This document shows positions 7,607-17,019 of a stretch of 34,982 nucleotides of DNA, piece by piece. This stretch comes from Microcaldota archaeon (GTDB lineage Archaea; Micrarchaeota; Micrarchaeia; Anstonellales; Bilamarchaeaceae). The stretch is taken from assembly GCA_016926175.1 (NCBI GenBank), contig JAFGPA010000005.1, positions 1-34,982 of the forward strand, given 5' to 3'. Made by a program: the position numbers and the translations under genes. Numbering within the stretch: the first letter of the stretch is position 1; each line of letters begins with the position of its first letter. Under the pieces are notes generated by a model. That model did not search any database, was not told the origin of the DNA, and saw nothing but the letters and a program-made list of their open reading frames with translations.

Positions 7607-7741
7607 ATGCGGCAGATGGCCACAACTGCGGAAGGCGTGCCTGCAAGAGCCCACACAATTGTGATTTCCGGTGAAACTCTCCAATATCAGCTGTTCATAA
7701 ATAATAAAGCCGGATTCAAAATCGCAATTCCATTGATATGA
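7607..7741 (+). CDS. Possible small ORF (44 aa) translationally coupled to the downstream membrane protein
   Basis: ATG 7607 to TGA 7739-7741 (MRQMATTAEGVPARAHTIVISGETLQYQLFINNKAGFKIAIPLI); the stop overlaps ATG 7738 as ATGA; below the ORF-track cutoff. Confidence 0.3.
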   Translation: MRQMATTAEGVPARAHTIVISGETLQYQLFINNKAGFKIAIPLI

Positions 7742-8367
7742 AAGTGCCCTGGTTTAAGTTACAAAAAACTCGGATTTTTATGCTTTTTGATTTCAATTAC
7801 CTCATGGAAATTGTATCTAACCTGAGAAGAATCAAGGATAACCTGCTGCTTATACCGGAAGAGAAATTCGACATTCTTTCCAAGGATGCCCTGTCTGTTT
7901 CATTTGTATACCTGCTTGGTTTGCTGATTTTGTCAGTGCCTTTTGGTATCCTGGTTTCTTTTTTTTCTGATTCTCCGCTGGAAGCGCTCATGTCCCTTCC
8001 ATTTTCATATCTGATTCTTATTCCGGTTCTGTACATTGGTTTTGGAATCAATCACCTCTTTCTTAAGATAGTTGGAGGGAAGGCAGGCTTTTCAGAAACA
8101 GCAGCGACAATTATCCATGGCGAGACTCTTTTCCTTATAATCTCCTCGATTCCGTGCATTAATTTTTTGGCAGGCCTTGTTGCACTTGCAAATATAGTCA
8201 TTGGTGCAAAAAGAGTTCACAAAATCTCGCTTATCCGGTCAATAATTGCAATTATAGTGATTCCCCTGATCCTGTTGGTTATTCTGTTCGCCTTTGCTAT
8301 ATTGTTCTTCGCTATGATCCTGGGCAGTACCATTAGTTCAATGGGACCGGGAAACTTCTACTATTAG
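7738..8367 (+). CDS. Polytopic membrane protein, Yip1-domain-like
   Basis: Several hydrophobic helices and a Yip1-like arrangement (FSYLILIPVLYIGFGINHLFLKIVGGKAGFSETAATIIHGETL). An internal ATG at 7780 or 7804 may be the true start. Confidence 0.6.
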   Translation: MKVPWFKLQKTRIFMLFDFNYLMEIVSNLRRIKDNLLLIPEEKFDILSKDALSVSFVYLLGLLILSVPFGILVSFFSDSPLEALMSLPFSYLILIPVLYIGFGINHLFLKIVGGKAGFSETAATIIHGETLFLIISSIPCINFLAGLVALANIVIGAKRVHKISLIRSIIAIIVIPLILLVILFAFAILFFAMILGSTISSMGPGNFYY

Positions 8368-8405: not shown

Positions 8406-9491
8406 ATGAGTGAGTTTCCCGGGGTGGAGATTGCGGTTATTGTTGTTTCAGCATCCATTGTATTTGCAGGCATACTCTTGGGCCTTGGAAAGGCCTTTGG
8501 ATACAAGAGAATTGAGGATTTCGGTGTTGAAGAACTTATCCAGTCCATAATAAACGCAGCAATTATCGGTGCATTTGCAGCAATTATAGAACTTGTAGGT
8601 GCTGTAAGCTCCACCATCGTAACCCCAACATGCGAGCAGGGCAATGTTGTCCAGCAGCTTATCTGCGTTCTCGGGCATATCAATGACGGTCTCTTCCTGA
8701 TGTTCCAGAACCTTGTGCAGATTCTTAATCTGCTTGGCTATTATCAGAGCCTTGCCCTTGATTTTGGGGCGTTTGCAATAACTCCCTTCGCTAATCTCGA
8801 TGCAGTTTCAGCTGTTTTATCCGTTCAGCTTCTTTCTCTCAATGCGATAATAGTACTGCTTGCACTGAATATCCAGATTGTAGTTTTCATAGCAGGAAAT
8901 GCCCTTGGCCTTCTTTTCCCGGTTGGCCTTGTCCTGCGAACAATGTTTGCCACCAGAAAAGTCGGCGGTTTTCTTATTGCACTTGCGGTTGGCCTTTATA
9001 TTTTCTATCCGACATTTGTGCTTATATTCCCTGATCCTCAGATTGAAATAAACCAGTCTGCAATAATCATGGAAAACTTTACAAACAACAGCTTCTATGC
9101 AACGCCGCCGATTATAGACCTCAATAATAACTATGCAATTGCAGCCAAATTCGACATTCTGAGCGGCCGCTGCCACCCGGACATGTTCAATACAACCAGC
9201 ACCAATCTCACCAACACAACCATAAATATCTCCAATTCTTCAATTCTTATGGCATGCAATCAGACTCTGGCAGACTATAATATAACCAATCTCACGGCCC
9301 AGAACGTTTCCATTGATTTTACGGGGGATCTTACTGAGATCACACAATCAAACAATACGGCAATATCCAAGTCCCTTCTCTATGCGGTTGTTGCGCCGCT
9401 GTTTTCCCTTCTGGTTACTATCGTATTCGTCAAAGAACTGGCTTCACTCCTCGGAAGTGAGATTGGTCTGAAGACCATAGCTTCAATTTAA
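8406..9491 (+). CDS. Polytopic membrane protein, VirB6/TrbL/CedA-like
   Basis: 361 aa with many TM helices; LLFPVGLVLRTMFATRKVGGFLIALAVGLYIFYPTF followed by an Asn/Thr/Ser-rich loop and a C-terminal helix ending FVKELASLLGSEIGLKTI; located directly upstream of VirB4-like genes. Confidence 0.7.
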   Translation: MSEFPGVEIAVIVVSASIVFAGILLGLGKAFGYKRIEDFGVEELIQSIINAAIIGAFAAIIELVGAVSSTIVTPTCEQGNVVQQLICVLGHINDGLFLMFQNLVQILNLLGYYQSLALDFGAFAITPFANLDAVSAVLSVQLLSLNAIIVLLALNIQIVVFIAGNALGLLFPVGLVLRTMFATRKVGGFLIALAVGLYIFYPTFVLIFPDPQIEINQSAIIMENFTNNSFYATPPIIDLNNNYAIAAKFDILSGRCHPDMFNTTSTNLTNTTINISNSSILMACNQTLADYNITNLTAQNVSIDFTGDLTEITQSNNTAISKSLLYAVVAPLFSLLVTIVFVKELASLLGSEIGLKTIASI

Positions 9492-9516
9492 ATATGATAA
9501 AGTCGAGGTTGATAAT

Positions 9517-10299
9517 ATGATTATGAATCGCGCAGTTACAACGGTTGCCCTTGTAGGTGGCGTTCTTGCAATAATCCTTTCTCTGTTGTCAGGAAATATA
9601 CTTTTTCCGCTTATTGCTTCAGTATTCTTTACAATGAGCATTCTTCTGTGGAAATACGGTTATATTATAGTTCCTGTTCTCACAAAAGCAACAAACATTG
9701 TCGAAGTCCGCGGGGGATATGAAGTTCCGCCGACAAGAGACTATATCATCAAGAAAAACGATAGCGGGTATTATGCAGCCAAATTCCTTGAAGTAAGATT
9801 CTATGAAAGCTCCCTGGAAAAGGACAATGAACAAAAGAAAAACATGTTTGAATCCTTTGAAAAGGCAATCAGCTCCCTCAAATATATTGTAAAGGTAAGT
9901 CTTATGATCAGCACACTTGATCTTTCAAAGCATATAGACGAGATCAAAACCAAGAGAAGCACTGTGGAGGCCAAAAAGGCAAAAGGAGCCAAAATGGCCC
10001 AGAACGAAACTCTCCGCATGGATCGTGAGCTGGCCTACTGGAACAGACTTCTTGACAGGATTACCCAGGGCGAGAGGCCAGTCGAGGTTGTTGCATTTGC
10101 GTCTACAACATCATTTGGCCTTACCAGGGATGAGGCTTTGAGCAGGGTATCCAGGCAGAGCAAAGAGCTCCGTACCATCCTTTCCAGTTCACTTGGCTGC
10201 GAAGTCCGGGAACTGAAAGACACTGACATGCTGAAATGTTTTGAATGGGACTATTTCTTTCCTATAACAAGGGAGGAGATACAGGACAGCCTATTCTGA
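9517..10299 (+). CDS. Membrane-anchored protein with VirB4 N-terminal-domain-like region (PrgI/VirB3-like TM pair plus soluble domain)
   Basis: Two N-terminal TM helices, then a soluble domain (FESFEKAISSLKYIVKVSLMISTLDLSKHIDEIKTKRSTVEAKKAKGAKMAQNETLRMDRELAYWNRLLDRITQGERPVEV...ALSRVSRQSKELRTIL...LGCEVRELKDTDMLKCFEWDYFFP) resembling VirB4/TraC N-terminal domains; GAGGTT SD-like site 5' of ATG 9517. Confidence 0.65.
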   Translation: MIMNRAVTTVALVGGVLAIILSLLSGNILFPLIASVFFTMSILLWKYGYIIVPVLTKATNIVEVRGGYEVPPTRDYIIKKNDSGYYAAKFLEVRFYESSLEKDNEQKKNMFESFEKAISSLKYIVKVSLMISTLDLSKHIDEIKTKRSTVEAKKAKGAKMAQNETLRMDRELAYWNRLLDRITQGERPVEVVAFASTTSFGLTRDEALSRVSRQSKELRTILSSSLGCEVRELKDTDMLKCFEWDYFFPITREEIQDSLF

Positions 10300-10371
10300 T
10301 AATCAACCCAGGAACAGAATGAAATTGCGATTTTCATCCTTCTTTGACATAAACAGCGCCAACTTTCAGTA

Positions 10372-10386
10372 AAATTTATATATACT
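10372..10386 (+). promoter_or_regulatory. Candidate TATA-box promoter for the ATPase gene
   Basis: AAAATTTATATATACTCC lies about 50-60 nt upstream of ATG 10433; a TSS about 25 nt downstream would fall 3' of the tracked TTG start at 10391. Confidence 0.5.
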
Positions 10387-10432
10387 CCATTTGAGTATTG
10401 ATGGGTTGGGTCTACCTGAGGTGAGGTGGAGA

Positions 10433-11986
10433 ATGAAGTCTTCGTATATGCTATCCAAGGAGCTTGCACGTAATATGATATTTGTGCATCCTCCCGAGCC
10501 AAGAAAAGAACTGCTTCTGTCAGATCCATCCCAGGGAGTGTATATAGGCAAAACCCGGTTTCTTAATACTCCTGTATTCTGGGATCCTGAAAAGCTTGTC
10601 AATCCGCATCTTGCAATTCTTGGTATTACAGGTTCCGGTAAGAGTTATACTGTGAAAACATTTCTTACACGGGCATCTTTGATATGGAACACCAACGCAG
10701 TCATACTTGACTGGGTGGGAGAATACCGGGAATGGGTGAGGCAGGCCGGAGGAAGGATAATAGATCTTTCAAAGGAGCGTTTGAACATCATGGACCTTGT
10801 CGGCCTTCCCAAAAGAAGCAGGATAAGGCACATAATATCGGCACTTGATATTCTTGTAGATCTCAAATCATTTCCAAATGAAAGGGATGAAATAGAACAG
10901 GCACTGGAGGATATTTACTTCAACAATGCACATGTCCACCCTGCCATGTCAGAAATCAACAAAAGCCTTTCGCTGAGCAAGCTAAACAAAAAACAGAAGA
11001 ACGACGAGCTGAGAAAACTCAATAGCATGGTAGCAAAAAAACCTACTCTTGTCGATGTCGTTCGTGTTCTGGAAAAACGCGGCAACAAGAAAGCCGCACG
11101 GCTGCTGAAAAGATTTACTGTTGAAGGAACCGACTTTTTTGCAGGAAATTCAACCATGGATATCAAGGGACTGACCTCCAGTGGTCTCGTCTGTGTTGAT
11201 CTTCATTCACTGCCAACTGAAGAAATGAGAAGTCTTGCCGGACTCACCATACTTCAGTATATAAAGGAAATAATGAGGCAGGCCGGCATGCAGGAAAATC
11301 ACAAGAAAGTCAAGCTTTTCGTTGTCCTTGATGAAGCATGGAAAATAGCCCAGGATGAAAGAAGTGATGTCATAACGATAGTCCGCGAAGGCCGTAAGTA
11401 TAATTTCTCCCTTGTGATAGCCACTCAGAATCCTACCGATATGCACAAGACAATATTCAGCAATATCGGCTCAGTTTTTGTCCTCCGGCTTGTTCTCCGT
11501 GAATATAGGGACTATGTAAGGAATTCAATCGGCTATTCTGATTTTATCGACGATGAAATTTCCAAATTTGGTGTTGGGGACGCTGCAGTCAATATGATAT
11601 TTGCAGAACGCCAGTCAAGGGTCATGACATTTTTGATGGATAAAATAGACGGGGAAGAACCCCTTCTTATCTATAAGATTAAAGGTGGAGACATGAATGT
11701 TGAAATAGAGAGGGAACAGTTTGTCCGCATGCTTTACGAGCTTGGACTTACTGAAAGCCAGCTCAGCATGATAAAGGCAGAATTTGAAAAAGGAGACGGG
11801 CTTCTTGAAGGTGAGCAGCTGGTTGCAATCCTTGAAAAGTTTGGTTATTCAAGACCATCCATCATCTCATTCCTGCGCCAGCTTAGCATAGATGAGAAAA
11901 ACCTTATTAAGGTCTTCTCACTTGTAAGAATGAGGAAAGCTACCAAAGGCGTTGTCCATTTGGTAATGGAGGATGGAAATGTCTGA
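10433..11986 (+). CDS. VirB4/HerA-superfamily ATPase (CedB-like)
   Basis: Walker A LAILGITGSGKSYT, ILDWVGEYREW, Walker B LFVVLDEAWKIA, IATQNPTDMHKTIFSNIGSVFVLRL. ATG 10433 has a GAGGTG SD 8 nt upstream; the tracked TTG at 10391 is an alternative. Confidence 0.9.
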   Translation: MKSSYMLSKELARNMIFVHPPEPRKELLLSDPSQGVYIGKTRFLNTPVFWDPEKLVNPHLAILGITGSGKSYTVKTFLTRASLIWNTNAVILDWVGEYREWVRQAGGRIIDLSKERLNIMDLVGLPKRSRIRHIISALDILVDLKSFPNERDEIEQALEDIYFNNAHVHPAMSEINKSLSLSKLNKKQKNDELRKLNSMVAKKPTLVDVVRVLEKRGNKKAARLLKRFTVEGTDFFAGNSTMDIKGLTSSGLVCVDLHSLPTEEMRSLAGLTILQYIKEIMRQAGMQENHKKVKLFVVLDEAWKIAQDERSDVITIVREGRKYNFSLVIATQNPTDMHKTIFSNIGSVFVLRLVLREYRDYVRNSIGYSDFIDDEISKFGVGDAAVNMIFAERQSRVMTFLMDKIDGEEPLLIYKIKGGDMNVEIEREQFVRMLYELGLTESQLSMIKAEFEKGDGLLEGEQLVAILEKFGYSRPSIISFLRQLSIDEKNLIKVFSLVRMRKATKGVVHLVMEDGNV

Positions 11987-12680
11987 AGAGAAAATCATAG
12001 TAAAATGCCAGCAAAAGAAAAATCTCAAATCTCTTGCAACTTTGCTTAGCGGCCTTGGCTTTACAAAAATTTCCTATGCAAAGGGCAGACTTATTATTGA
12101 AAAGACCAAAGGGCGGGATCTCCGAGGCCAGCCTTACCTTGAATATCGTGTAGAATTTAAGGACGATACCCTGGAATTCACCTACAGTCTTTCCGGGAAG
12201 CGAAGCAAAAATGCACGGCTTCTTGAACTCATGCCAACTTTTTTGAATATCCTTCAGGTAGCCGAGGAGTATTATGACATCCAGCCGACACAGCTGTTTT
12301 CCCACATAAATACGGTTCTTCTTGAACTTTCAAAGATCGTTGATCATGATGCAGTCGAGTTTTCGACACAATTGACCGATCTTCAGGAAAAACACGCAGA
12401 TATCAGCAAGAAATACGATGATCTTGTAAGATCAAGCGAAGCAGGCACCAGGATTCTTCTCGAATGTGAGAGAAAGCGCGATGAGCTTCAAAAGAAGCTT
12501 TCCCAGCTGAGTGGCATGAGCGATGATCTGCTGAAAGAAACCCTTTACAACTGGATCAAGGTCCATGGAGGATCAATAGATATCCGGGAATTCTCAAAGG
12601 CAAATTCAGTTTCAGTGAGCAGAACAGAGGAAGGCCTTGACCAGCTCATACGTGAAGGCTACATAAGGAGGAGACTTTAA
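11973..12680 (+). CDS. Coiled-coil protein with C-terminal winged-helix-like domain
   Basis: Overlaps the ATPase end by 14 nt; heptad-rich centre (LTDLQEKHADISKKYDDLV...ECERKRDELQKKLSQL) and wHTH-like tail (LYNWIKVHGGSIDIREFSKANSVSVSRTEEGLDQLIREGYIRRRL). Confidence 0.75.
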   Translation: MEMSEEKIIVKCQQKKNLKSLATLLSGLGFTKISYAKGRLIIEKTKGRDLRGQPYLEYRVEFKDDTLEFTYSLSGKRSKNARLLELMPTFLNILQVAEEYYDIQPTQLFSHINTVLLELSKIVDHDAVEFSTQLTDLQEKHADISKKYDDLVRSSEAGTRILLECERKRDELQKKLSQLSGMSDDLLKETLYNWIKVHGGSIDIREFSKANSVSVSRTEEGLDQLIREGYIRRRL

Positions 12681-12838
12681 TGGCAAAGAAAAAAATTGCG
12701 CCGGCACAACCGACCACATATTTTTTTGCATTTGAAATCATAAAGCCCTATAACTATTGCCGTTCATATATACTAAAAGCGCCTCTGAAAAAATCATTCA
12801 AGGAGTCGTTTTCTGAACTTCTTATGGGTCGAGTATGA
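12680..12838 (+). CDS. Small ORF (52 aa), unknown function, between the ATPase cluster and purD
   Basis: MAKKKIAPAQPTTYFFAFEIIKPYNYCRSYILKAPLKKSFKESFSELLMGRV; starts in a TAATG overlap with the upstream gene and ends overlapping purD's ATGATG; not in the ORF track (<60 aa). Confidence 0.5.
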   Translation: MAKKKIAPAQPTTYFFAFEIIKPYNYCRSYILKAPLKKSFKESFSELLMGRV

Positions 12839-14133
12839 TGAAAGTTGTTCTAGTTGGAAACGGAGCCCGGGAACATGCAGTAGCAGCCGAGCTTGCAAAA
12901 GATGCTGAGCTGTATGCAATAATGTCGAAAAAGAATCCTGCGATTGCACATCTTTCCAAGGAATACTGGATCTGCAATATTGAAAATCCGGATGCAGTAG
13001 CCGCCGTGCTGAAAGGAAAGCAGTTTGATCTTGGTTTTGCCAGTCCTGATGCGACCCTTGCAGCAGGCATCAGTGATGTTCTTGAAGCCCATGGAATGAA
13101 TGTTGCTTCACCTTCCAAGGCAGCATCAAGGATTGAATGGGACAAGTCATTTCTCAGAAATCTTGCAGAGAAATACCATATTGCCGGAGCTCCAATACAC
13201 AAAGTAACAGGCGATCCGGATGAAGCGGCCTCATATATCACTGATCTTGGTGAAGTTGCAGTCAAGCCCCTTGGCCTTACCGGCGGAAAAGGGGTGAAGG
13301 TCAGCGGAGATCATTTTGCAAGTCCGGAGCAGGCCGTCGAATATGCAAAATCCCTTATCAAAAAAGACGGAAGCGTTCTTATTGAAGAAAAACTGATTGG
13401 AGAAGAATTCACTCTCCAGGCATTCTGCGACGGTTCCAATATCGCACTGATGCCGCCGGTTCAGGATCATAAAAGGGCATATCCTGATGACAAAGGCCCA
13501 AATACCGGGGGCATGGGCAGCTATTCAACAGGAATTCTTCTTCCATTCCTGAAAGATTCTGATATTGAACAGGCAAACAAGATAATCCGGGATACGGCCC
13601 ATGCAGTAAAGAAAGAAGGAAGCCTTTTCAGGGGGATACTTTATGGCCAGTTTATTGTAACCAAAAAAGGGATCAAGCTGATCGAATTCAATGCCCGGTT
13701 TGGAGACCCGGAAGCCATGAATGTCATGTCGCTTCTTGAAGATTCACTTTCAAACATATTCATTTCCATGGCAGACGGCAGACTCAAAAAAGCAAAATTT
13801 TCTGATGATACTACTGTAGTGAAATATCTTGTTCCGGAAGGATATCCAGAAAATCCTCAAAAAGACAAACCCGTAAATATTGACAATGCAGCATTGGAAA
13901 AAACAGGAGCAAAAGTCTATTATGCAGCTGTATATGAAACTGGGAACAGGATATACACGACGTCTTCCCGGTCATTTGGAATGGCAGGCCGGGCAAGGAC
14001 GCTTGAAGAAGCCGAGCAGATAGCTGAAAAAGCATGCTCCTGCATCACAGGCCCGCTCTGGCACAGAAGCGATATAGGAACCAGGAAACTTATCCAAAGC
14101 AAAATAGAGCGCATGAAATCTATTCGTGATTAA
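12835..14133 (+). CDS. purD: Phosphoribosylamine-glycine ligase
   Basis: MKVVLVGNGAREHAVAAEL N-terminus; ATP-grasp motifs VKPLGLTGGKGVKV, QDHKRAYPDDKGPNTGGMGSYS, FNARFGDPEAMNVM. Confidence 0.96.
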   Translation: MMKVVLVGNGAREHAVAAELAKDAELYAIMSKKNPAIAHLSKEYWICNIENPDAVAAVLKGKQFDLGFASPDATLAAGISDVLEAHGMNVASPSKAASRIEWDKSFLRNLAEKYHIAGAPIHKVTGDPDEAASYITDLGEVAVKPLGLTGGKGVKVSGDHFASPEQAVEYAKSLIKKDGSVLIEEKLIGEEFTLQAFCDGSNIALMPPVQDHKRAYPDDKGPNTGGMGSYSTGILLPFLKDSDIEQANKIIRDTAHAVKKEGSLFRGILYGQFIVTKKGIKLIEFNARFGDPEAMNVMSLLEDSLSNIFISMADGRLKKAKFSDDTTVVKYLVPEGYPENPQKDKPVNIDNAALEKTGAKVYYAAVYETGNRIYTTSSRSFGMAGRARTLEEAEQIAEKACSCITGPLWHRSDIGTRKLIQSKIERMKSIRD

Positions 14134-15252
14134 ATGCGGTTTTTTCTTCTGCTCCTTTTTATACCTCTTGCATTTTCCTCACAAATAACCATTGAAAGAG
14201 AGTGGAAGATTCCTGATCAAGAGGGCATGTTCGTTGATTTTCAAGGAGCACTTGTGGTAAACAACAGCCATCAGAAAATAATTTACATAGAACATGACGG
14301 GACAATCTTTCAGGATGAATACGGCACTATATGGATTCATTTCAATAAAAATCTTACTTCTGAAAAAATTCGCGGAAAAGCCATCGTTGAGGTAAATCAT
14401 TCAATAGAAATCCAGAGTGATTCTTATCTTCCGGAAATCCCAGTCAAAACAACCAGCCTTACATCTTATGATGAAGAGATGGCTGCAAAAGCAAAACAGC
14501 TTGCAACAAATTCTTCCCTGGAAACGATTGCCAATCTTGTCAACTGGGTGCATATTTCCATCGATTATGATGAATCCTACTGGGACAAGGTCATATCAGC
14601 AAAAGAAACATTCCAGGAAAAAAAAGGAGTATGCGTTCAGTATACCCATCTTCTCATTTCAATGGCCAATTCCCTTGGTTTTCAAACAAGATATGTAACC
14701 GGTTATATATATACTGATGACTGGCAGCCCCATGTATGGGCTGAAATATACGTTCCATCCTATGGCTGGCTTCCTTCTGATGCAACATACGGAAAAATTG
14801 GAAATCAGGATGATCATATTACCATTGCATATGGCCGTGATCAGCTGAGCACCTCTGATTTTCTTATTTCAAAAATCAATGAAAGTTCTCTTAGTGTTGA
14901 TGACACTCTTTCCATCCTGCAGTCAAAAAAAGTTTCACAGGACTACATTGACATAACTTTTGATGAAGACTCCCGCCTAATCCATGTTATGATCCGAAAC
15001 AACCGGCCGTATTATGTTTTTGGAGATTATTTCTTTGAGACCCCGTATTTCAACGATTCAGCAATTCTCCTCCTGAATCCCAACCAGACAATGAACAGGT
15101 ATTATGGAGTTAACAGATCTGTTTTTTCAAACAGCATTTCTGTTTCTGCTTCTTTTAACGGTGAAAGTGAAAAAAAGAATTTCGTAACAGAGCAGCCAAC
15201 AGCATGCCTGCCTCTATTCCTTCTTTTATATCTTTTAAGAATAGCTCTATAA
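14134..15252 (+). CDS. Secreted or membrane-anchored transglutaminase-like protease-fold protein
   Basis: Signal peptide MRFFLLLLFIPLAFS; Cys-His-Asp motifs GVCVQYTHLLISMANSLGFQTRYVTGY / PHVWAEIYV / WLPSDATYG; hydrophobic C-terminus. Confidence 0.88.
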   Translation: MRFFLLLLFIPLAFSSQITIEREWKIPDQEGMFVDFQGALVVNNSHQKIIYIEHDGTIFQDEYGTIWIHFNKNLTSEKIRGKAIVEVNHSIEIQSDSYLPEIPVKTTSLTSYDEEMAAKAKQLATNSSLETIANLVNWVHISIDYDESYWDKVISAKETFQEKKGVCVQYTHLLISMANSLGFQTRYVTGYIYTDDWQPHVWAEIYVPSYGWLPSDATYGKIGNQDDHITIAYGRDQLSTSDFLISKINESSLSVDDTLSILQSKKVSQDYIDITFDEDSRLIHVMIRNNRPYYVFGDYFFETPYFNDSAILLLNPNQTMNRYYGVNRSVFSNSISVSASFNGESEKKNFVTEQPTACLPLFLLLYLLRIAL

Positions 15253-15275
15253 TAATTTCTTTATCTGTTACTATT

Positions 15276-15947
15276 ATGAATCAGACGCTTATTCAAAAAC
15301 TTGAGCGATACCTGCCTCCAAAACATGCGTTGCCTATTTCAGAATCAATATGCGTTAGCATTGCAGAAAAAGGGTATCACAGATGTGCTGCTGCACTTCA
15401 AAATGCTGTCTTTGCAGAAATACGGCTTGGAAAAGCGGGTCTTGATGAGCTGGAGATACGCAGACTTTTTTCTCTTGGAAAGAAACTTATTGCAACATCA
15501 AGAACAAACAAGGTCCTTCTTGCTCATGCAGTTCTCTGCCATGCACCCCTGATAGATGTCGAGATTGACGCCTGCCACAGGAACCAGCTGATAACTGCCG
15601 CAAAGAAACAAGGCTCTAAAGTTATTGTTTCCCACCATGACTATGAAAAAACACCATCAAAATCGGAACTTGCAGAAATCAAAAAACAATGTTTTGATGC
15701 AGGTGGAGATATCGCAAAGATAGCGTGCATGGCACATACGGATGAAGACTGTGATGCCCTGCTTAGTTTTGCCGATCCTAGCACGGTTGTTTTCGGAATG
15801 GGTGATTTTGCCAGCCATACGCGCATTGCATCGCTTTTCCTTGGCAGTCCTTTTGCATATGCTGCTCTTGATTGCGGCAAGGAGACTGCTCCGGGCCAGC
15901 TTACAAAGGCCCAAATAGGTGAAATTCTGGCACGTTTGAGCCTTTAA
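15276..15947 (+). CDS. aroD: 3-dehydroquinate dehydratase, type I
   Basis: AEIRLGKAGLDEL, VIVSHHDYEKTPS (catalytic His), DIAKIACMA (Schiff-base Lys), Q near the C-terminus. ATG 15276 preferred over 15204, which lies inside the upstream gene. Confidence 0.85.
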   Translation: MNQTLIQKLERYLPPKHALPISESICVSIAEKGYHRCAAALQNAVFAEIRLGKAGLDELEIRRLFSLGKKLIATSRTNKVLLAHAVLCHAPLIDVEIDACHRNQLITAAKKQGSKVIVSHHDYEKTPSKSELAEIKKQCFDAGGDIAKIACMAHTDEDCDALLSFADPSTVVFGMGDFASHTRIASLFLGSPFAYAALDCGKETAPGQLTKAQIGEILARLSL

Positions 15948-15972
15948 AAAGACTTTTATCCAGTATTCCCGC

Positions 15973-17019
15973 ATGTCTGATGTTCATATTGTTGGTGCTG
16001 GTCCAGCCGGATCGCTATCTGCAATATCTGCTCTTGAAAAAGGCCATGAAGTGGTAATCTCAGAGGACCATCCGGAATCAGGATACCCCAAAAACTGTTC
16101 AGGACTTTTTTCAAAGGACGGTCTCAGCTCTCTTTCCATTGATTACAAAAAGCACATCATCAATCCCATTTATGGAGCTAATATCTATTTTGTTGACCAG
16201 AAACTCGAAATAAGAAAAAAACAGCCTGTTGGCTTTGTATGCAACAGAAGCAAAATCGACAGATCTCTTGCCGAAACCGCAGAACGTCTTGGTGCAAAAA
16301 TAAATTACAATGAAAAGATAAAGGATTCATTTCATTCAAAAACAATAATTGGTGCAGATGGTCCATTATCTGCAGTTGCAAGGCATTTCTCCTTTCCGAA
16401 AATATCTGCGTATGCATTTACCCTCCAGTCATTTGTTGACTATCAGGCAGAAGATCCATATATAGTGGAAGTTTTTCTTTCCAGCCGATTTAAGGGCTTC
16501 TTCGGCTGGATTATTCCGCATAATGAAGATGTTGCTGAGTTTGGCGTCGGTTCTCTTAACAATGTGCAGGGCGCCTGGAAAGCCCTTCTTGATATCAAAA
16601 GAATCTCGGCTCCAACCCCCCGCGGCTGGACAATTCCTATTGCCGTAAGGCCCAGAACCTCGCTGGCGAAAAACAACTACAAGGTTCTTCTTGTTGGGGA
16701 TGCTGCAGGCCAGGTCAAATCTACTACTGGTGGCGGTGTGATCTTTGGAGGGCATTGCGCCAAAATAGCCGGCAGGACCCTTAGCCCGCTGTTGTATGAA
16801 CTTGAATGGAGAACCCAGTTCGGAATTGATCTTAAAATTCATCAGGTTATCCAGAATTATCTTGCGGGACAGTCTGATGCCGGCATTCAGGCGCTTGGCA
16901 GAAGGCTTAAGAAGCTCAATTGCGATGAATTTTTATCCGGCTTTGGCCATATGGACCGGCCAACAAAAATGCTCGGTCCTGAAATGGTCGCTCACGTTAT
17001 CAGGAATTTGGGTGTTTAG
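15973..17019 (+). CDS. Geranylgeranyl reductase family flavoprotein (archaeal lipid biosynthesis)
   Basis: VHIVGAGPAGSLSAISALEKGHEVVISED (FAD GxGxxG), KNCSGLFS, LLVGDAAGQVKSTTGGGVIFGG. Confidence 0.93.
   Translation: MSDVHIVGAGPAGSLSAISALEKGHEVVISEDHPESGYPKNCSGLFSKDGLSSLSIDYKKHIINPIYGANIYFVDQKLEIRKKQPVGFVCNRSKIDRSLAETAERLGAKINYNEKIKDSFHSKTIIGADGPLSAVARHFSFPKISAYAFTLQSFVDYQAEDPYIVEVFLSSRFKGFFGWIIPHNEDVAEFGVGSLNNVQGAWKALLDIKRISAPTPRGWTIPIAVRPRTSLAKNNYKVLLVGDAAGQVKSTTGGGVIFGGHCAKIAGRTLSPLLYELEWRTQFGIDLKIHQVIQNYLAGQSDAGIQALGRRLKKLNCDEFLSGFGHMDRPTKMLGPEMVAHVIRNLGV

Follow-up and report, generated by a model that had tools for sequence, protein, structure and literature searches.

Background

Domesticated machines resembling type IV secretion systems (T4SSs) have been described experimentally in crenarchaea, namely the Ced system of the Sulfolobales (CedA, CedA1, CedB and CedD; PMC9905601, PMC11868833) and the Ted system of the Thermoproteales (TedA, TedB and TedC; PMC9905601). 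For DPANN archaea, the means by which macromolecules travel between cell and host are still an open question. In a search of open-access papers we found no earlier report of a VirB- or Ced-like system in Micrarchaeota; the Mia14 report speculated on DNA exchange via type IV pili or conjugative elements (PMC5498576).

The locus described here lies in a 34,982-nucleotide stretch of DNA (the window), which is contig 4 (C4) of a 1.05 Mb, 93% complete assembly from a micrarchaeon that we infer to belong to the Ca. Bilamarchaeum genus. It shares with Ced a chromosomal setting, the lack of a relaxase, a VirB4-type ATPase whose nearest curated model is CedB, a pilin accompanied by a channel protein with a pilin-homologous N-terminus, and an anchor and ATPase that together align along CedB. 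It differs in that CedB is one polypeptide in Ced and corresponds to two genes here (the ATPase scores 86.6 bits and fails the curated CedB equivalog cut-off of 700), in having about 14 channel proteins rather than one or two, and in its extra conserved coiled-coil/winged-helix and large two-transmembrane (two-TM) proteins. With Ted it has in common a chromosomal VirB2/VirB4/VirB6-like set and a signal sequence on some of its longer pilins, as on TedC; however, the Ted VirB4 is not described as split, and Ted's ParA, HerA and Rad50 neighbours are not seen here. Bacterial conjugative T4SSs (R388 Trw; the Gram-positive CD1110/CD1112 systems) resemble it in the VirB4 fold of the anchor (TrwK), in the Pfam families of the pilins and in the gene order pilin, VirB6, VirB3, VirB4; unlike them, it has a split VirB4 and neither a VirD4, a relaxase nor detectable VirB6 sequence homology. 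The T4SS of Patescibacteria (PMC12102498) and the VirB4-like giant proteins of nanohaloarchaea (PMC10266531) are likewise chromosomal, widespread, mostly without a relaxase and found in host-dependent ultrasmall cells, but they belong to other phyla with other gene sets, and the descriptions consulted mention neither a split VirB4 nor multiplied channels.

Organization of the cluster

The cluster consists of five ORFs and one putative promoter element, as follows:

8406..9491, + strand: 361-aa polytopic membrane protein, putative CedA/VirB6-like channel subunit (profile, neighbourhood)
9517..10299, + strand: 260-aa membrane anchor with two N-terminal TM helices and a VirB4 N-terminal domain (AlphaFold/Foldseek, NCBIfam)
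10374..10384, + strand: TATA-like box, ATTTATATATA (with TTTATATA at about 10375-10382; read from sequence)
10433..11986, + strand: 517-aa VirB4-type ATPase domain protein without an N-terminal domain, Walker A GITGSGKS (Pfam, NCBIfam)
11973..12680, + strand: 235-aa coiled-coil and winged-helix protein (by eye; family beside the ATPase in nearly all loci)
12680..12838, + strand: 52-aa small conserved protein (C-terminal motif common to most congeneric loci)

A sequence check found all five + strand ORFs at 8406-12838 that the earlier note had listed, and the order anchor, ATPase, coiled-coil is retained in nearly all of 80 loci surveyed in other genomes. The ATPase is 75-84% identical to its closest relatives. 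We place its start at 10433, not at the upstream TTG, because the homologues begin with MKSSYMLSKE, matching the ATG at 10433; the longer TTG-start ORF from 10391 has no support among relatives. The TATA-like box lies about 50 bases 5' of this ATG and may serve as a separate promoter for the ATPase gene. The coiled-coil/winged-helix gene overlaps the ATPase gene by 14 bases, and in most congeneric loci a small ORF lies between it and purD, ending in the motif (Y/I)FxFE...YP..RS(Y/F).(L/I)KxPL(K/R)(K/R)SFKD; the 52-aa ORF, to judge by this motif, is a genuine small gene.

In agreement with the earlier note, no gene adjoining the cluster was recognised as a relaxase, NurA, Mre11 or Rad50. In congeners the context is one of conserved housekeeping genes (ThiF, PHP, purD). 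On the 3' side, at 12835-17019, come purD and the genes for a two-TM protein resembling transglutaminases and for a geranylgeranyl-reductase-like protein, in an order conserved in the genus. Immediately 5' of the cluster is a Yip1-like four-TM protein (7738-8367), which is probably outside the machine because most congeners lack it at that place. In one relative a TnpB-like ORF (recognised by eye; L049:5086-6303) is inserted between the channel and anchor genes.

A VirB4-type motor encoded by two genes

The ATPase matched the Pfam families DUF87 (4.5e-18) and AAA_10 (4.8e-17), and its best NCBIfam models were CedB (1.5e-24, aligned only at CedB positions 250-573) and the CD1110 VirB4 (1.9e-24), with HerA models at 2e-15 and weaker, all of these NCBIfam matches lying far under the model cut-offs. 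The CedB model scored 78.5 bits in the search of the genome, in which the S. acidocaldarius positive control was matched. The plasmid tblastn matches listed were mostly annotated VirB4/TraC conjugation ATPases, and distant. The description of the cluster as Ced/T4SS-like in the earlier note therefore holds as a resemblance, and fails as membership in Ced by score.

HerA structures occur among the PDB sequence matches of the ATPase; the protein itself is without a HAS-barrel, and the same genome encodes a separate true HerA with that domain (L008:2091-3581). In a maximum-likelihood tree that took in HerA, bacterial VirB4 and the micrarchaeal ATPase family (CedB sequences were left out), HerA and bacterial VirB4 were each fully supported and separate from the micrarchaeal family, the HerA branch having a length of 7.2 and support of 100/100. 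Nesting within HerA, the placement on which the earlier note had let its reading turn, is thus rejected; the tree alone does not place the family inside VirB4. The profile of the ATPase family aligns with most VirB4s in one piece and with HerA in fragments.

The 260-aa anchor by itself had no sequence match in the initial family and PDB searches. Its AlphaFold model (pLDDT 82.2, from a 63-row alignment) was compared by Foldseek with the PDB, a comparison that the earlier note had proposed with VirB4 in mind, and the first eight matches were TrwK/VirB4 of R388 (probability 1.00-0.98, E 2e-3 to 3e-2), the probability dropping to 0.47 at the ninth; the best of these E values (2e-3) is moderate, though the matches to this predicted fold are consistent. 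When the 63 members of the anchor family were searched against 18,950 NCBIfam models, the three models matched by the most members were VirB4_plasma (10/63), CedB (5/63, best 2.5e-5) and CD1110 VirB4 (5/63). Where positions were obtained, the matches fell on CedB 8-175 (residues 15-193 of the L055 homologue) and 137-214, and on VirB4_plasma 117-202. Since the anchor family covers CedB 8-214 and the ATPase 250-573, the two genes are colinear with one CedB/VirB4. Sequence and fold comparison thus show a VirB4 motor split in two, a 260-aa membrane anchor that holds the VirB4 N-terminal domain and a 517-aa protein with the ATPase domain, so that a VirB4 ATPase with its N-terminal domain is present as two proteins. 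This natural split separates membrane docking from ATP hydrolysis.

Direct hhalign comparison of the anchor with single bacterial VirB4 or PrgI proteins, or with a 5-sequence set, gave nothing significant. The two N-terminal TM helices of the anchor recall VirB3 in topology only; VirB3 homologues are stated to be absent in archaea (PMC11868833). We also considered a split VirB4 in the Gram-positive CD1110 systems and abandoned the idea, since some 170-200 residues precede the domain in their ATPases. In three relatives a single ATPase gene is preceded by a tandem pair of distinct anchor (VirB4 N-domain) genes (L199:10078-11731, L201:11607-13286, L202:10299-11992). This arrangement recalls CedB and CedD with their two complementary N-domains; the two proteins are stated to cover different portions of the VirB4 N-terminal domain (PMC11868833).

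Putative channel family and VirB2-like pilins

The 361-aa protein (AlphaFold pLDDT 82.7) had no Pfam, NCBIfam or PDB sequence match, and the VirB6-like structure anticipated for it in the earlier note was not borne out: Foldseek against the PDB gave no match to VirB6, and the best match, TTYH2 (E 0.04), was rejected. Direct comparison of the family with eleven bacterial CD1112 VirB6 proteins by hhalign found no homology, a tblastn search of plasmids returned nothing, and NF041016, tried as a candidate CedA model, is ArnR. What fits VirB6 is the family's position and topology; in relatives, the channel gene lies directly between the pilin gene and the anchor gene. Residues R178, R184, G187 and P202 are invariant in a wide alignment of the family.

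The profile of the channel family (A2) matches that of a VirB2-like pilin family (A4) over the N-terminal hairpin (hhalign E 7.5e-7; the lowest E for seven unrelated families of membrane proteins encoded in those loci was 0.05). By this profile match the 361-aa protein carries a pilin-like hairpin, as CedA does, its N-terminus being homologous to a CedA1/VirB2-like pilin; the same relation was reported by Beltran et al. for CedA/CedA1 and, more weakly, for VirB6/VirB2 (PMC9905601). The pilins are 80-145-aa two-TM proteins, encoded immediately 5' of the channel gene in several relatives, which match the Pfam families T4SS_pilin (10/16) and TrbC/VirB2 (5/16, best 1e-6) and have TrwL as their top, weak, PDB match. 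A 504-aa channel-family ORF (L046:6646-8160, contig C19) starts with two tandem pilin-like hairpins (E 4.8e-37) and is a fusion linking the two families.

The system across the genome

The source genome has three ATPase operons. Besides that of the window, one on C20 (L006) encodes pilin, channel, anchor, ATPase, coiled-coil, 704-aa and 1034-aa proteins, and one on C16 (L007) encodes anchor, ATPase, a small two-TM protein, coiled-coil and an 856-aa protein. Channel-family ORFs number 14 (a single one on each of C4 and C20, a tandem array of six on C19 and a further six on C2), and pilin genes lie on C29, C20 and C30, all outside the window. The earlier note missed that the 260-aa protein is the N-terminal half of VirB4, as well as the pilins and the 13 channel paralogues elsewhere. 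For an organism so reduced, with a genome of 1 Mb, about 14 channel subunits are an unusual number.

The VirD4 family (PF02534) gave no match in the genome, its controls being matched; this absence is provisional because the assembly is 93% complete. The relaxase family searched (PF03432) also gave no match, in a search in which only one control was matched. The absence of VirD4 and of this relaxase family is as in a domesticated system. A 523-aa ATPase on C16 (L140) was considered as VirD4 and rejected, as it looks HerA-like (DUF853-type) as read from the sequence. No relatives of the cluster were found on viral contigs.

Distribution across Micrarchaeota

We found the ATPase in all 59 near relatives; across the phylum, 246 of 295 genomes carry it (89 of the 96 good ones). 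The channel family was present in 107 of 116 genomes, with 14 to at least 16 matches per genome across most of the order to which the window belongs and usually 7-9 outside it. Channel and ATPase occurred together in 106 genomes, neither in 9 and the channel only in 1 (Fisher 1.3e-12, a test that ignores shared ancestry). Genomes without the system come from four families, and in one of these other members have both. The channel family and the ATPase are lost together, and the T4SS-like system is core to the phylum Micrarchaeota, which extends the domesticated machines of crenarchaea to a whole DPANN phylum.

In other families a single larger operon is kept. That of L199 comprises two pilins, six channels, two anchors and the ATPase, followed by a 99-aa ATPase-tail ORF, a small two-TM protein, the coiled-coil protein and a large two-TM protein; the operons of L200, L201 and L202 resemble it. 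The operon of the window therefore looks like a piece of an ancestral operon that would have been scattered and duplicated.

Proposed machine, its cargo and alternative explanations

With the parts list, the split VirB4, the pilin-channel homology and the co-inheritance established as above, we consider the cluster probably to encode the motor and channel of a T4SS-like machine for translocation, domesticated and chromosomally encoded, in an archaeon with a single membrane, with DNA the favoured cargo. The ATPase would form a hexamer docking on the anchor, beneath a pore of CedA/VirB6-like proteins; ATP hydrolysis would move a polymer through this pore, and pilin subunits (gene on C29) would form a short pilus or prime one. 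The leading candidate for the cargo, at about an even chance, is DNA, imported or passed from cell to cell as in Ced and Ted. In its favour are the rank of CedB as nearest curated model and the position of the pilin gene ahead of radA in 10 congeneric loci; protein moving to or from a partner cell comes next, as a tentative choice. The machine is a new candidate for how Micrarchaeota exchange DNA or proteins with neighbouring cells, and the near universality of the operon provides named genes that can be tested in existing Micrarchaeota co-cultures.

A protein-secreting T4SS working in symbiosis, exporting effectors or adhesins to the host cell or importing macromolecules from it, is possible though short of an even chance; such a role has been proposed for Patescibacteria and nanohaloarchaea (PMC12102498, PMC10266531). 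It would suit the host dependence of Micrarchaeota (PMC5498576), the large secreted or ectodomain proteins (700-1985 aa) encoded beside the operons, and the failure to find either relaxase or VirD4, and the epibiotic growth of Saccharimonadia needs a T4SS (PMC12102498). CedB as the nearest curated model and the pilin beside radA speak against it. So does the missing VirD4, since protein-secreting T4SSs usually retain this coupling protein. Assembly of a pilus or surface filament for attachment alone, with no cargo transport, is decidedly unlikely: the system includes pilins with VirB2 signatures, and the VirB4 of T4SSs also powers pilus biogenesis, but a plain filament would not readily account for the channel-like proteins, which reach at least 16 per genome.

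A VirB4-type ATPase and pilins are also hallmarks of integrative conjugative elements, and the cluster might be a remnant or resident one. This is very improbable given the occurrence of the system in nearly all genomes of the phylum, its conserved housekeeping context in the genus, the failure to find VirD4 or the relaxase family searched (PF03432), and a search for relatives that returned none on viral contigs and only distant VirB4s on plasmids; the earlier note's preference for a chromosomal machine over an integrated element stands. The remaining alternative, a HerA-type DNA-end resection helicase with accessory membrane proteins, would explain the DUF87 match and the HerA structures among the PDB matches, and is the least credible reading of all: the HAS-barrel is missing, the true HerA is encoded elsewhere, the families are apart in the tree, the profile aligns with HerA in fragments, and the membrane partner carries the VirB4 N-terminal domain. 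A HerA repair operon was rejected on the first three of these grounds, in line with the earlier note.

A more specific and rather unlikely reading would make the T4SS-like complex a symbiosis translocon on the symbiont side of cell-cell connections, its pore assembled from numerous CedA/VirB6-like subunits that differ from one another, with VirB4 N-terminal anchors of two kinds in some families, and serving the intake of host DNA, nucleotides or proteins. Cryo-tomography of the ARM-1 micrarchaeal co-culture has shown that nanotubes from the host dock on a 21-nm barrel within the envelope of the symbiont (PMC11329633), and the genes described here are a candidate for such a complex.

Accessory genes and insertions

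The 10 loci in which the pilin gene stands alone just 5' of radA (RadA recognised by sequence) are L169, L170, L172, L175, L176, L179, L180, L182, L183 and L184, all of the Ca. Bilamarchaeum genus; in other genera the pilin gene is directly upstream of the channel gene, not of radA, and the link, being confined to one genus, may be due to hitch-hiking. Operons of the C16 and C20 types encode, after the coiled-coil gene, a 700-860-aa protein with an N-terminal TM, an ectodomain, a second TM and a cytoplasmic tail (L007:6401-8971, L006:12170-14284, L108:12664-15201); it has no family match and is a possible VirB8/VirB10 analogue. Secreted or ectodomain proteins of 1034-1985 aa, one of them Cys-rich with a lipobox-like start, are encoded beside channel clusters or ATPase operons (L047:1-4120, L006:14220-17324, L106:15849-21548) and could be host-contact proteins. 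In two ATPase genes (L077:8333-11317, L078:2406-5483) the Walker A motif (GITGSGK|S) is interrupted by an intein-like insertion of about 500 aa, which ends ...FVHN|S and holds LAGLIDADG-like blocks, and the G024 ATPase has a similarly placed insertion.
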